Of a stretch of 64,000 nt of DNA, positions 30,005 to 42,955 are shown in pieces. The notes beneath the pieces are model-generated. The model was given only the letters and a program-made list of their open reading frames with translations, ran no database searches and had not been told where the DNA came from. Made by a program: the position numbers and the translations under genes. This DNA comes from an uncultured Pseudomonadota bacterium. GTDB taxonomy: Bacteria; Pseudomonadota; Gammaproteobacteria; Ga0077536. Numbering within the stretch: the first letter of the stretch is position 1; every line of letters begins with the position of its first letter. The DNA lies in the NCBI GenBank assembly GCA_903825645.1, contig CAIKBL010000041.1, forward strand, positions 72,375 through 136,374, written 5' to 3'.

Positions 30005-30496
30005 CTAATTTCCCCTGACTTGGATTGGTGTACCCAGACTAAACCCAAATTTCCCATAAGAACATGTTTTGAGGGCGAAAAACCCACCGCGCAATAGATG
30101 AGCAAATCGAAGGAGTCGGACATAATCGCAACGTCCTTCGAATCACGCTCGGTGGTGCTTGGCAAGCGCGAGTTTGACGATCCTTGCCCGACCAGCCGTC
30201 GCGAGATAGCCCGTTTCTATAAAGCATTCATATCGCCAGGTTTTCAAGTTTGATGCGCGGTTTTCGGGCGACTCGGCATGATTGACCCGCATGACGGCCT
30301 ACGAGCCCATGCACCTACTCGGACAGGCCATCTTCCTCGTGTTCAAGACGGCTTCCGTCGCGTAGTCCCGTCACGCGGACATCGCTGCCATCGAGTATCG
30401 ACAACGACCAGACCCGCAACAGTCCTACCGCGGACGCTGTATGTCGACTCGGATACATCACGGGCAGTTCGCTACACATCGCGCAAACCGGCCAAA

Positions 30497-30682
30497 AACG
30501 TCGCCAAGAATGGCCATTGGCACAATGCCGTCGCGCTGCGCATCCCGCCGTCCCTAGGATCGGCCGCCCGACATTGCACCCGCAACACCTTCATCACCGC
30601 CATCACCCGCACCGTCTGCTCAAATCCGACTGTGTCCATCGGATGCGCTTCCTTTTGGCGTAGCGCCGCTGACGGCGCTTAA
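30497..30682 (+). pseudogene. Possible remnant of a MazE/AbrB-type antitoxin gene
   Basis: The frame encodes VAKNGHWHNAVALRIPPSL, which resembles the opening strand-loop of SpoVT/AbrB-fold antitoxins (usual form KWGNSxAVRIP). The rest does not match the family well, no start codon or ribosome site fits, and no toxin gene follows. A terminator-like hairpin sits at its end. Resemblance is short, so the call is tentative. Confidence 0.3.
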
Positions 30683-30689
30683 ATTTTTC
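30662..30689 (+). terminator. Candidate intrinsic terminator
   Basis: AGCGCC and GGCGCT pair around a GCTGAC loop, followed by TAAATTTTT. It would stop rightward transcription of the decayed stretch before the cheB-like gene. Confidence 0.5.
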
Positions 30690-30847
30690 ACAAACGCAGG
30701 GCCACCAATTGACGGACTTAGAGCCCTAGCGGGAGATGGACAAAGCCGGATTCAAGTTGCAGTATGGGCAAGAAATAGTTGTGGCTACCATGGTTTTTTG
30801 CGTGCTGACTGGCTTGATCCTCCGACGGATGTGGAGACCCCATTAGC

Positions 30848-31492
30848 ATGAACTCACAGGCCTGCGTCGTCGTGGGGATTGGGGCATCCGCAGGCGGCCT
30901 ATCCGCGCTGCAGACATTCTTTCGCCGATCACGACCAGACACCGGTGCAGCGTTCGTGATCGTCCAACATCTGGCTCCTCTCCATAGCAGTCTGCTAGCA
31001 GAGATCATCGCCCGTGATACCGTCATGCCCACCGCGCAGGTGGTCAGCGGCATGCCCATTGCGCAGAACCATGTCTACATCATCCCGCCCGGAAATTACC
31101 TGACTGTGCGCGGAGATGTCTTTGAACTGAGCGAACCGGTCTTGGAGAATGGCGTGAGGATGCCCATTGACGCCTTCTGGACATCGCTGGCAACGGAACG
31201 GGGGGAACGTGCGGTCGCCGTCGTCCTGTCGGGCAATGGTGCAGACGGCACGCTTGGAATACGTGCCGTAAAGAGCCGCGGGGGCCTCGTGTTGGTGCAG
31301 AGCCCAGACACTGCCGAATTTGATAGCATGCCGCAGCACGCTATCGCCACCGGGCTTACCGATGTCGTCTGTGACGTCGAGCGGATTGTCGACTACCTCG
31401 ATAAGTTCCTGCGACACTTTTGTAGCGAAATGCCCACAGCCTCTCCCCTCTCCCCTCTCCCGCGGAAAGCGATGAGCTACGGGATCTCTTAG
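30848..31492 (+). CDS. CheB methylesterase domain, split off from a CheB-CheR-PAS-kinase protein
   Basis: The 214-residue product is a CheB-type methylesterase domain with the catalytic set S14 (GIGASAGG), H41 (VQHLAP) and D133 (SGNGADGT). It lacks a receiver domain, as is normal when CheB begins a large CheB-CheR-PAS-histidine kinase chain. In the known architecture the CheR domain continues in the same frame. Here the frame runs through three 7-base repeats into 12 non-family codons and a TAG. GGAG lies 11 bases before the ATG. The domain itself looks functional. Confidence 0.87.
   Translation: MNSQACVVVGIGASAGGLSALQTFFRRSRPDTGAAFVIVQHLAPLHSSLLAEIIARDTVMPTAQVVSGMPIAQNHVYIIPPGNYLTVRGDVFELSEPVLENGVRMPIDAFWTSLATERGERAVAVVLSGNGADGTLGIRAVKSRGGLVLVQSPDTAEFDSMPQHAIATGLTDVVCDVERIVDYLDKFLRHFCSEMPTASPLSPLPRKAMSYGIS
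31441..31461 (+). repeat. Three perfect tandem copies of CTCTCCC at the CheB/CheR junction
   Basis: CTCTCCC occurs three times without interruption. The unit is 7 bases, so each gain or loss shifts the reading frame. With three copies CheB and CheR are out of frame; with four copies (or one) the frame runs from 30848 to 34917 as a single protein of about 1,358 (or 1,351) residues. The repeat codes for a serine-proline-leucine linker. Confidence 0.9.
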
Positions 31493-31569
31493 CGCTGTTA
31501 AAGGTCCGCGGTGGTTATGACTTCAGCGGTTACAAAACCGGCACGATCTATCGGCGCATCGATCGGCGC

Positions 31570-34500
31570 ATGAGACTCCACGAGAGAAAGACGTTCGTTG
31601 AATACCTTCAACTCGTGCGCGAAAACGAAAACGAAATGCACCAACTGCGCCAAGATCTCCTTATTGGGGTGACGTCATTTTTTCGGAACACCGCTGCCTT
31701 CAGCGCCCTCGACGCTGAGGTCATCGCCCCCTTGGTGGCCGACAAACATCCCGATGAGCCGATCAGGATCTGGGTCCCAGGTTGCGCCACTGGTGAGGAA
31801 GCCTACTCCATCGCGATGCTGGTGATCGAGCAACTAAAAAAAGCAGGGAAAAACTGTCCGCTTCAAATTTTCGCCAGCGATATTGACGAATCCGCGCTGG
31901 CGATTGCGCGCGCAGGTCTGTATCAGCAAGAGAGCGTAGCCGCGCTTCCTCCCTCTTATCTGGAGCGCTTTTTTGTCCAGAACGGCCACAATTACCAGGC
32001 CTCCCGGCCGTTGAGAGAAGCCATCCTTTTCACGACCCAAAATCTGATCAGTGATCTGCCGTTCTCCAATCTGGACCTAGTTACCTGCCGGAATGTGCTC
32101 ATTTACCTGAACATCGATCTGCAGAATAAAATATTCAGGCTGTTCCATTTTGTCCTGAGAAAGCGTGGCTGCCTATTCTTAGGGAACTCGGAAATGGTGA
32201 GTGAAGACGAGGGGTTGTTCGAACCCATCAACAAGGAATGGCGGATCTACCGTCGAGTCGGGGACTCACGTCTGCCGCTGCTCGACTTACCGACCAGAAT
32301 GCTACGGAGCGCCTATACACCCGCCGCGGACAGGAAGATTGCAGATCGTAGTCTCGCAGACGTTATGAAGCAGTCTCTATTCAATAATTTCGTGCCGGCC
32401 GCTGTTCTAGTCGATTCTAAGGGTGATGTACTGCAATTTTCGGGGAAAACTGGACCCTTTTTGGAACAACCCACCGGCGCCCCAACACGCAATCTATTCG
32501 CGCTAGTTCGACGGGAATTGCAGGCAAAACTGCGGGACGCGCTACGTGGTGCCGTCGCCGATAATAAGCTGGTGGAAATCGACGACGCCCATGTGGTGGA
32601 TCGTGTCGGACGGCGACGTATCAAACTCACGCTCAGGCCAATCTCGATACCGGGCTCGATCGAACGCCTGTTTCTGATTGCTTTCGAAAACCGGCCCGAC
32701 CAGCCAGCACAGCATGAATCGCGTGAATACAACTGGGTGCCGCCGGAACGATCGTTAGTTCAGGGCATAGAAGATGAACTGCGGATTACCCGCGAAGAGT
32801 TGCAAGAAAAAATCCTAGAGCTCGAATTGACCAACCAGGAATTTCAGGCCGCCAACGAAGAGATGATGTCGGTAAATGAGGAGTTGCAGGCCTCCAATGA
32901 GGAGATGGAAACCTCGAAGGAAGAACTTCAGGCTACTAATGAAGAGCTCAGCACGGTAAACAACGAGCTCAAAATTAAAATCGGAGAGCTGGCGGAAAGC
33001 AATGACGATTTATCGAATTTATTGAGAAGCACGGACATCCCAATTCTGTTTGTGGATGCGGAACGGCTGATTAGGCGGTTTACACCCTCGATGGCGACGG
33101 TAATGAATATTATGCCATCTGACGTGGGGCGCCCACTGATCGATCTCCGACTGAAAGTGACGGATCCCAATTTGCTGGACGATATCGATCTTGTGATAAG
33201 CGGGCGCGCAGTGGCGGCTCGCGAAATCATGGGCACAGAAGAAAAATGTTATTTGCGCCAAATTTCGCGCTACCAAGCACATTCTAATGATATCAGCGGA
33301 GCAGTAATCTCCTTCGTTGATATCAGTCCTCAATTGCGGGCGTATGCGGAGTCTCAGCGACTCGCCGTTGTACTTCGGGATTCCACGGATGCCCTCACGG
33401 TACAGGGAATGGATGGCCATATTATCGCTTGGAATAAAGGCGCTGAAGGTTTATACGGCTGGAAAGAAGAGGAAGCGCTCAAGATGAATGCGTCCGTGCT
33501 GCGGTCAAAAGACGCGCTGCAGGTGGAGCCATCAATCATCCAACGCCTCCTTCGCGGAGAAAAAATACCTAGCGTGGAAACCAAGCGCCGGCACAAGAAT
33601 GGCGCAGAGATCGACGTATGGGCAACGGTAACGCCGTTAGTGGATCGAGATGGACGCATCACAGCGGTGGCGACGACAGATCGCGATGTCACCGAGCGTA
33701 ATGCCGCGATATCGGCGCGCCTACGTGCGGAAACTCGTTACGAAAATCTCGCCCGACAAGTCCCAGTGGGTCTGTTTACTTTCAAGCTTGACCCGTTTGG
33801 GAAATTTATCATTACCTACGCGAGCCCTCGCTATTGTGAGCTTCTGGGCGTCACTGCCGAATCAGTCACATCCGATCCAAATCTCCTGTTCGAGATAATC
33901 CATTCTGCAGATTCGAAGTTACTCCGCGATATTCTAAAAAAAATGTCGTTAGCGTCTGATTCTTTTGAGTACGATCTGCGCTTCATCGTGCACGGAGAAG
34001 TGCGCCATATTCGCACCACAGTGAACCTCGGCGGAGATCAGTGCGGCGGTATCGAAGGGTCTGGTTCCATCCTTGATGTCACGGAGCAGCTACTAACCCA
34101 AGAGGAACGCGCGCGTCTTAGCGCGCAGCTGACTCAGTCCCAAAAGATGGAAGCCATGGGCCAGCTCTCGGCTGGCGTCGCCCATCATTTCAACAACATC
34201 ATCCACAATATTATCAATTTTGTGGAATTAGCGAAAAAATTAGGCACGCCAGACTCGAACAGCGTGCTTGATCCGATTTTGGATAAAATTGAACGAAGTG
34301 CCGAAAGTGGCGCTGATTTAGTCTCGAGTTTACTGAGATACAGTCAACCTACTGACCTCCTCGAAGCCATTCAACCTATCGATGCGCATAGCGTGATCCG
34401 CACAGCACTGGTCCTCATCCACACCTTATTGCCCCGTGGTATCACGCTAGCGTATGCGCATGACGAACATCTGCCTTTGATCGCCATCCGAGCCGCCGAA

Positions 34501-34917
34501 CTGCAAGACGCGATAAGGAATCTCGTCCTAAACGCATGTGAGGCGCAGGGCAATCGAGGCGAAATACAAATAAACCTTCACGGCGCAATGTCCGCCGAAG
34601 GAATTTGCGCGGCCTGCCAGCAGCCTTTTAAAGGTCAGTTTGTCGAAGTCGAAGTAATCGACAAGGGGCCCGGGATTAAAGGAGAGATCCTCTCGGATAT
34701 ATTCCAGCCTTTTTTTTCGACCAAAGAAGTTGGCAACGGGTCGGGCCTGGGCCTGTCTTTGGTGCACGGCTTGGTGCACGCCGTTGGCGGTCATATCCTC
34801 GTGGAATCCGAACTTGGACGACGCACTGCCTTCAAGCTCCTGTTTCCCCCCGTGCTCACCGAACCGTCTCCGCACGCTGACGACGGGGTTGGACGCAACC
34901 TCATCAGTCCTGACTAA
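31570..34917 (+). CDS. CheR methyltransferase-PAS-histidine kinase protein (3' part of a split hybrid)
   Basis: The 1,115-residue product has a CheR SAM-binding domain (VPGCATGEEAYSIAM, near residues 60-75), a PAS-like stretch, a heptad coiled coil (about 400-483, repeated NEELQASNEEM units), three PAS domains (about 497-587, 592-710, 723-846), an H-box with H872 (GVAHHFNNI) and an HATPase domain (about 977-1096; DKGPGIKG, GSGLGLSLVHG). No receiver follows. The frame is open upstream to 31426 and encodes the rest of the conserved CheR N-terminal helices (YDFSGYKTGTIYRRIDRRM), so the internal ATG is not the natural start. Confidence 0.88.
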   Translation: MRLHERKTFVEYLQLVRENENEMHQLRQDLLIGVTSFFRNTAAFSALDAEVIAPLVADKHPDEPIRIWVPGCATGEEAYSIAMLVIEQLKKAGKNCPLQIFASDIDESALAIARAGLYQQESVAALPPSYLERFFVQNGHNYQASRPLREAILFTTQNLISDLPFSNLDLVTCRNVLIYLNIDLQNKIFRLFHFVLRKRGCLFLGNSEMVSEDEGLFEPINKEWRIYRRVGDSRLPLLDLPTRMLRSAYTPAADRKIADRSLADVMKQSLFNNFVPAAVLVDSKGDVLQFSGKTGPFLEQPTGAPTRNLFALVRRELQAKLRDALRGAVADNKLVEIDDAHVVDRVGRRRIKLTLRPISIPGSIERLFLIAFENRPDQPAQHESREYNWVPPERSLVQGIEDELRITREELQEKILELELTNQEFQAANEEMMSVNEELQASNEEMETSKEELQATNEELSTVNNELKIKIGELAESNDDLSNLLRSTDIPILFVDAERLIRRFTPSMATVMNIMPSDVGRPLIDLRLKVTDPNLLDDIDLVISGRAVAAREIMGTEEKCYLRQISRYQAHSNDISGAVISFVDISPQLRAYAESQRLAVVLRDSTDALTVQGMDGHIIAWNKGAEGLYGWKEEEALKMNASVLRSKDALQVEPSIIQRLLRGEKIPSVETKRRHKNGAEIDVWATVTPLVDRDGRITAVATTDRDVTERNAAISARLRAETRYENLARQVPVGLFTFKLDPFGKFIITYASPRYCELLGVTAESVTSDPNLLFEIIHSADSKLLRDILKKMSLASDSFEYDLRFIVHGEVRHIRTTVNLGGDQCGGIEGSGSILDVTEQLLTQEERARLSAQLTQSQKMEAMGQLSAGVAHHFNNIIHNIINFVELAKKLGTPDSNSVLDPILDKIERSAESGADLVSSLLRYSQPTDLLEAIQPIDAHSVIRTALVLIHTLLPRGITLAYAHDEHLPLIAIRAAELQDAIRNLVLNACEAQGNRGEIQINLHGAMSAEGICAACQQPFKGQFVEVEVIDKGPGIKGEILSDIFQPFFSTKEVGNGSGLGLSLVHGLVHAVGGHILVESELGRRTAFKLLFPPVLTEPSPHADDGVGRNLISPD

Positions 34918-35398
34918 CACTTTCCGAAGCCAGGCGCTATTTGGCCCCTATAAAAATAGGGCTGTCGCAATTCGCGCATGGTGGTTATATCGGTAGGCAA
35001 ACTGGCAGCGTTCTCATCGTTAGAATCCTGCAGCGCGCAAATACTTAATGCTGAAGATGAGGAGGACCACGCAAGGTGGTCTCCCGCGGGCCCTACAAAA
35101 AGAAGAGACGAGGCGCGCGGCGATGGGGGGCACGCAAGCATATCGCGCCGCACTGATTGCACGTCAGCCCGATCACATATCTGTGGTGCTAGCAGTCCTA
35201 TCACGCATTCAACGCCGGTGGCGATACATTTTTGCCCCATTCTAGGCGAAAATGGCAGCTCGGCGCTGTCAGTCCTGAACGGGTTGACTTCTGGGTCGCC
35301 CGAGTGCGAATGCCGTCGCGGAAAGCCGATAAAGACGGCGAGTTCCCCAAAGCTTTTTTGGATCAGGCCTCTCTATTTTTCAATGGGTTGCTAGATTT
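34918..35398. other. 481-base gap before trpG, no recognised gene
   Basis: Several short frames are open but none has family resemblance. The most coding-like is a 69-codon plus-strand frame (35193-35402) containing [20 protein letters not shown]; it has no good start codon but its stop overlaps the trpG ATG as ATGA. It may be the tail of a lost gene. No terminator after the kinase gene was found. Confidence 0.4.
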
Positions 35399-42039: not shown

Positions 42040-42333
42040 TCAGGGTGGGGGTGAATGAGGTGACTGGAGTGATTGCGCCGTTTCGCCCACCGGTTTGAGG
42101 GGTTCTTCGGCGAGCTTTTTCAAATCGTCCGATCGCAGGGCCTGCTTGAACTCGTTGAGTTCACGCAGGCTCGCATCGTTTTCGAGCTGGTTTTTCAGTT
42201 CACGGACCATGCGTTGAGCGCGACCCACCCAACGTCCGGTCGTCCGAATCAACGGCGGCAACCGCTCCGGGCCAAGCACCAGTAGCGCGACCAACCCAAT
42301 CAGCATCAGTTCCGAAAAGCCGACATCAAACAT
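42040..42333 (-). CDS. tatB: Sec-independent translocase subunit TatB
   Basis: Single-span Tat subunit that forms the receptor complex with TatC. With MFDVGFSELMLIGLVALLVL as N-terminus it has 97 residues: membrane helix, hinge at GPERLPPL with the conserved Glu and Pro, then the amphipathic helix and a polar tail. The frame extends 14 codons upstream but that would bury the membrane helix. Confidence 0.93.
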   Translation of the reverse strand: MFDVGFSELMLIGLVALLVLGPERLPPLIRTTGRWVGRAQRMVRELKNQLENDASLRELNEFKQALRSDDLKKLAEEPLKPVGETAQSLQSPHSPPP

Positions 42334-42340
42334 AGTAAAT

Positions 42341-42562
42341 TTAGACGTTCTTTTGCTCAGATTTGACGACTTCACCGTCGATTACGTGTTTTGCGGCATT
42401 AATATCGACCACCGGCGGATCGTCATTGCCGTCCTTAATTGCTTTTCTGAAATCGCTTATCCAGCCACCGACATCGCCACCGATGCCTCGAATTTTTTTG
42501 GTCCCGAACACCAGAATGACGATCACGAGCACGATAATCAGGTGCGGAAGACTAATTCCCAT
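42341..42562 (-). CDS. tatA: Sec-independent translocase subunit TatA
   Basis: Pore-forming subunit of the Tat system. 73 residues: membrane helix LPHLIIVLVIVILVFG, hinge FGTKKIRGIG and amphipathic helix DVGGWISDFRKAIKD. The phenylalanine-glycine hinge (FGTKK) marks TatA as against TatB. Seven bases separate it from tatB. Confidence 0.95.
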   Translation of the reverse strand: MGISLPHLIIVLVIVILVFGTKKIRGIGGDVGGWISDFRKAIKDGNDDPPVVDINAAKHVIDGEVVKSEQKNV

Positions 42563-42613
42563 GAGCTTTCTCCCGCGCTCACCCGTAGGTAAACGCTTCG
42601 ATTAAACAAGTGT

Positions 42614-42955
42614 CTATTGTGTCTGACGCGAGGCTTTTTCTTCAATGCCAGAACGTCCAAACCGTCCGGCAAGTTCCGTCATCACTCGCGCGGGGTCGAT
42701 CCCCTGATGAACCAGTGCGACGAGGCAGTGAAACCACAAATCAGCCATCTCGTGGACAACCGCGTCCTGATCAGTCCCGCCCGTCGCAATCACCACCTCT
42801 GTTGCCTCTTCACCAATCTTCTTACGAATCGCATCGATCCCTTGATGGTAGAGTCGCGCAACGTAGGACGACGCGGGATCGGCGCTTCTCCTCTGTTCCA
42901 AGATCTGGATCAGTTGGTTCAGGATATCGTCGGACATTGGCGCTCCCCGGTTCAT
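42614..42955 (-). CDS. hisE: Phosphoribosyl-ATP diphosphatase
   Basis: Removes pyrophosphate from phosphoribosyl-ATP, the second histidine step. The all-helical 113-residue protein has the MazG-like acidic motifs [10 protein letters not shown] and [14 protein letters not shown]. The start used overlaps the hisI stop as ATGA, which favours it over the ATG six codons later. HisE and HisI are separate genes here, not fused as in E. coli. Confidence 0.94.

Follow-up and report, generated by a model that had tools for sequence, protein, structure and literature searches.

A 64,000-nucleotide stretch of contig CAIKBL010000041.1 (assembly GCA_903825645.1, positions 72,375 to 136,374), referred to below as the window, comes from an uncultured gammaproteobacterium and carries a 4.1-kb gene for a CheB-CheR-PAS-histidine kinase protein. 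The CheB domain and the CheR-kinase domains of this gene are encoded in two different reading frames of the same strand, and the frames change at an array of CTCTCCC heptamers in the linker between CheB and CheR. We consider it probable that this is a locally acquired fusion gene with a recent slippage frameshift at the CTCTCCC linker. Slipped-strand mispairing in the course of replication would have altered the number of heptamer units, and the array would have settled at three copies, the out-of-frame state. Such a site would be mutable and may revert, though frequent or selected reversion finds no support in our data.

Two reading frames and the heptamer array

The main features of the gene are listed in Table 1. 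The CheB frame (214 amino acids, starting with ATG 30848) contains the nearly complete CheB_methylest domain (1-173 of 174). The CheR frame, which has 1,163 codons and is preceded by the stop codon TAG at 31423-31425, contains the CheR_N (1-52 of 53), CheR, PAS_10, further PAS, HisKA, and HATPase_c domains. The CheB frame is read in phase 2 modulo 3 and overlaps the CheR-PAS-histidine kinase frame, which is read in phase 1 modulo 3; the third frame runs into a stop in this region. The domain order of the known fusion, that is, CheB, CheR_N, CheR, PAS, HisKA, and HATPase_c, is present but is spread over two frames, and in the assembled sequence CheB and CheR do not lie on one polypeptide. An earlier sequence-only reading of this DNA had placed the two parts in different frames, with the break at three copies of CTCTCCC (31441-31461), and had traced the open CheR frame upstream to 31426 as coding for the N-terminal part of CheR; the frames, the array, and the Pfam domains agree with it on each of these points, CheR_N being in frame.

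Table 1. Features of the CheB-CheR-PAS-histidine kinase gene (positions in the window)
Feature	Coordinates	Strand	Basis
CheB methylesterase frame: CheB_methylest and out-of-frame tail to TAG 31490-31492	30848..31492	+	Pfam, reading of open reading frames
Open frame CheR_N-CheR-Glu/Gln-rich stretch-PAS_10-PAS-PAS-HisKA-HATPase_c	31426..34917	+	Pfam, reading of open reading frames
Frame-change interval between CheB and CheR homology	31433..31467	+	Alignment to relatives
Heptamer array in the CheB-CheR linker: three perfect CTCTCCC (31441-31461) and one matching base	31440..31461	+	
Downstream frame from its earliest ATG, 1,115 amino acids, without most of CheR_N	31570..34917	+	

Homology to CheB extends to about 31432, and homology to CheR starts at about 31468. 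The frame change is therefore confined to some 35 bases, and 22 of these are occupied by the perfect array, which comprises 3.14 copies of the 7-mer. For two tandem CTCTCCC units with at most one mismatch, 0.01 occurrences are expected in the window, against two overlapping places found, both inside the array. Further, a search of the whole genome (4,125,812 bases) for exact tandem pairs yielded two places, which again both belong to this array. The control, the pattern read backwards, matches the genome once; its occurrence in the window is at 31446, within the array. Arrays of period 7 were scanned in 525,692 bases, namely, the window and 24 other stretches from three contigs, a non-random sample of about 13% of the genome. 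Among the 34 arrays of at least two copies found in this sample, only the CTCTCCC array reaches 2.4 copies, and none of at least 2.85 copies arose in ten first-order Markov simulations of the same length. If placed at random in the gene, the array would overlap the 35-nt break interval with probability 0.014. The association of the repeat with the frame break goes beyond chance and is real, and slippage is the natural cause to propose. A genome-wide set of heptamer contingency repeats, considered as a separate candidate, is unsupported in the sampled part of the genome.

In the assembled state, the product of the first frame would be the CheB methylesterase domain on its own, ending in a short junk tail. 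The CheR-kinase part, cut off from its usual start of translation, would be either poorly made or initiated at ATG 31570, ahead of which the CheR frame has no ATG, GTG, or TTG. This codon is residue 49 of the downstream frame and CheR_N spans residues 16-67, so most of CheR_N would be lost; no Shine-Dalgarno-like sequence was seen in the 20 bases preceding it. A working kinase is unlikely to be produced from this allele. In the intact protein, CheR would add methyl groups to glutamates of the coiled coil and CheB would remove them, tuning the kinase. This proposal follows by analogy from the sensor kinase RsbK of Bacillus cereus, the signalling helix of which is methylated by RsbM (PMC4574943). 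The coiled coil itself is the probable structure, as read from the translation, of the Glu/Gln-rich stretch that follows CheR. Two imperfect 21-bp repeats (80% matches, 32875-32915), whose unit is divisible by three, encode part of this stretch. The third-position G+C of the gene (30848-34914) is 0.675 in CheB versus 0.581 in the CheR-kinase part.

In-frame relatives of the fusion

A CheB-CheR pair is present in 38 relatives; in every one of them, the distance between the two domains is a multiple of three and the linker has no stop codon. None of these 38 linkers, all from distant relatives, contains a repeat of at least 2.5 copies and at least 12 bases. The relatives are approximately 34-52% identical to the window gene over CheB and CheR and have these two domains in the same order, with the linker at the same place; the comparison covers CheB and CheR. 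Thus the window gene shares the order of CheB and CheR and the position of the linker with the CheB-CheR-PAS-histidine kinase fusions, but differs from all 38 in being out of frame at the linker. These counts support the earlier claim that the protein is normally one chain. A natural split into two genes was rejected, given the shared frame of the 38 relatives and the absence of an early common start in the downstream frame. Since the relatives are in frame and lack the repeat, while the array is unique, the window gene is best read as a broken allele of the known fusion, with the repeat as the likely cause of the break.

Thirty-one of the 38 relatives come from the species-contig and class searches and seven from the family search. 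In the contig scan of the GTDB species, the best 80 of 441 loci were kept, and three of these (L035-L037) hold a CheB-CheR pair. In the class search, 30 of 369 genomes, the window's own included, matched at E 1e-100, and 28 of the 29 non-self loci were counted; L127 was left out, its CheB being weakly recognisable (27% identity). The family search for CheB covered 36 genomes, with matches in seven, the window's own included. Seven of its nine non-self loci hold the pair, L004 being CheB alone and L191 having a CheR piece on the other side of CheB, and one additional match row lacks a locus. Also excluded were six loci of the window's own gene, together with L006, L021, L115, L116, and L118, in which no CheB was found next to CheR over the stretch covered.

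Several irregular loci were observed in these searches. In L125 (L125:3406-3952, genome G208), CheB lies in two frames that switch near residue 67, the first third being out of frame with the rest; this locus was counted, since the end of its CheB shares the frame with CheR. Among the 36 match rows of the class search, two have an in-frame stop (TAA, TAG) inside the match, namely L134 (G243:C84:6830-9148) and G336:C36:1230-3260, both of them CheR-kinase relatives. Finally, G005, a genome of the same genus, has a lone CheB frame (L004:1291-2088, 265 residues read), followed after 15 bases by a frame with helix-turn-helix matches (L004:2103-2579, HTH_7 just above the cut-off). From this arrangement, it is possibly a CheB-CheR gene that was cut in the linker by a mobile element.

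A variable slot beside trpGDC

The genes on both flanks are collinear with those of G001 and G002, two genomes of the same genus. The gene sits between a SnoaL-like gene and trpG (NCBIfam TIGR00566, trpG_papA), in a slot that measures 5,394 bp in the window (30005-35398), 1,064 bp in G001, and 2,133 bp in G002. The G001 and G002 slots contain other sequence, with no significant similarity to the slot of the window (best E 0.014). They have one similar frame in common and G002 carries one more, making this a variable spot beside trpGDC; from the translations, the contents appear to be a TetR-like regulator in both genomes and an exonuclease III-like gene in G002. The comparison covers G001 and G002, as the G003 and G005 contigs start at trpG and G004 has no detected trpD.

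Of the six genus genomes, only that of the window and G005 have CheB matches at E 1e-30, and no close DNA match to the gene was found in the five other genus genomes. At the DNA level, short patches only were obtained from 15 of 57 genomes besides the window's own, none of them in the genus. The G+C content is 0.522 in 31500-34500, 0.568 in the whole window, and 0.596 in CheB. Thus the variable slot carries the gene as a local addition that was probably acquired. A phage origin was considered and rejected: nine phage records match, all below 60% identity and none covering 80% of the query. On plasmids, 256 records match at E 1e-50, three of them covering 80% of the query, and are annotated as chemotaxis protein CheB or CheR family methyltransferase; all are below 60% identity, and thus the family occurs on plasmids but the source was not found. 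A promoter scan upstream of the gene, with none found versus 3.8 expected in shuffles, was uninformative.

Possible causes of the frame break

When copy numbers from one to six were tried, one and four brought CheB and CheR into register, and two, three, five, and six did not, exactly as the sequence-only reading had calculated for the gain of one unit or the loss of two. By analogy, an array of three copies is a mutable site like the (CTGG)3 repeat of lacI and not a long phase-variable tract. Insertions and deletions (indels) in the lacI repeat are reported as the largest class of inactivating mutations of this gene in Pseudomonas putida (PMC3485313). Both cases involve three short tandem copies within a coding region, with a unit that is not a multiple of three, but the lacI indels were measured under laboratory selection, whereas the window gene is a single sequence state. 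Titles and the opening parts of abstracts yielded no published description of a case like the present one.

The age of the break was assessed at near-invariant positions, defined as those with the same residue in at least 95% of 32 relatives. One of 14 such positions is changed in CheB of the window (D to E) and none of 59 in the downstream frame; in the relatives, the changed fraction is 0-0.067 for CheB, with one at 0.667, and 0-0.113 for the remainder. The frame change aside, constraint seems to act on the gene. An old pseudogene would have lost near-invariant residues and was rejected in view of their preservation; hence the break is recent or reversible, or the gene still works, or the break is an error.

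This preservation is one of several points that weigh against a slippage frameshift. Frame arithmetic requires only one base modulo three, and the loss of a single base in a C-run fits it equally well. The normalised linker would have 21 nt with one heptamer copy, 42 nt with four, and 36 nt with a single-base change, while the linkers of the 38 relatives have 15-57 nt (mode 27, median 33; at most 21 in two of them and at least 42 in five). The single-base length is near the middle of this range and the other two are towards its ends, and these lengths do not clearly favour either one or four copies as ancestral. No closely related orthologue that would give the ancestral state was found. Finally, the break inside CheB of L125 indicates that breaks elsewhere in such genes occur, which argues against the linker as a special site. 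In view of the linker lengths, we keep as a rival, though an improbable one, the deletion of a single base in a C-run of the linker, with the heptamer array as a bystander. However, the array is perfect over 22 bases, and on this account it must have been imperfect before and made perfect by the deletion.

An error of sequencing, assembly, or consensus, in which a unit or a base was wrongly dropped from or inserted into a linker that is truly in frame, would explain why near-invariant residues are intact on both sides of the break, and why this break stands alone in surroundings that are otherwise clean. The genome is a draft of 90 contigs, the linker has C-runs (C4, C4, C3) prone to base miscalls, and L125, the gene broken inside CheB, likewise comes from a draft (420 contigs). 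On the other hand, ordinary sequencing reads are longer than the 22-bp array, and its collapse in assembly is therefore not expected. Nor does the stretch seem error-rich, since the syntenic genes of the window have no accepted frame break relative to G002, where the matches of at least 55% identity cover 27,143 window bases, less than half. Among the 50 open frames of G002 (98 kb) matching the window at 45% identity or more, there was one frame-break candidate (42154-42728, plus strand), which was taken as an antisense shadow, as two conserved genes lie there on the minus strand. On balance, we regard an error as unlikely.

The deliberate production of both parts, with ribosomes shifting frame or reinitiating at the C-rich linker, is very improbable. 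The downstream frame does stay open, and a proline codon after C (C CCT) could let the P-site tRNA slip by -1 into the frame of CheR. But the CheB frame has no X XXY YYZ heptamer in 31425-31492, and the pseudoknot-free RNA fold of 31400-31560 is no better than that of shuffles (z 0.53), so that programmed -1 frameshifting is without support. Reinitiation would face the same lack of start codons and of a Shine-Dalgarno-like sequence as described above, and none of the 38 relatives is split at the linker.

The sequence-only reading had suggested a phase-variable switch, in which the heptamer number could toggle the gene from a fused sensor to a free methylesterase with a crippled kinase and back. 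As a rival explanation, this requires reversible changes at a biologically useful rate, the fused form being an adaptive sensor kinase. In its favour, the array lies exactly at the break, beyond chance, the downstream frame is open over its whole length with near-invariant residues intact, and a change of one unit breaks the frame, as expected of a phase-variable locus. Heptamer tracts are reported to mediate phase variation of hmw1a and hmw2a in Haemophilus influenzae (PMC2651432); the tract of strain PittAA lies inside a reading frame, consistent with a frameshift, and the counting threshold used in that report is reached by three copies. However, the tracts for which it gives numbers have 13-38 copies and are mostly upstream of the gene. 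In a Salmonella mutator strain, slippage in a three-copy 6-bp repeat of mutL, which is described in Salmonella and E. coli, changes the copy number and the gene function and interconverts the alleles, but no conversion was reported in over ten thousand colonies of non-mutators, and the 6-bp unit preserves the frame, whereas the 7-bp unit of the window gene breaks it (PMC2955026).

Natural copy-number toggling is thus not supported: the repeat is missing from all 38 linkers of the relatives, no second heptamer array of at least 2.4 copies is present in the sampled genome, and the gene, without a close DNA match in the genus, looks acquired. The latter makes simple breakage a plainer reading than toggling. 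Intact-frame relatives without the repeat, which the sequence-only reading had named beforehand as evidence against its proposal, do exist; this is a weak refutation, as relatives of such low identity cannot reveal the linker of the immediate ancestor. Altogether, a switch operating at a useful rate seems distinctly unlikely. Reversion of the slippage frameshift is plausible, but by comparison with the short repeats above it is probably rare. A slow heritable switch, with a kinase under methylation feedback in register and free CheB that could act on other chemoreceptors out of register, is a doubtful extension of the same idea.

If switching did occur, phase variation would act on the module by which a sensor kinase adapts, freeing the CheB enzyme rather than turning a gene off. 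As a slippage frameshift, the window gene would show, in a clean natural case, that a few tandem heptamers can break a large multidomain gene, and it is a warning not to annotate its two parts as independent functional genes.

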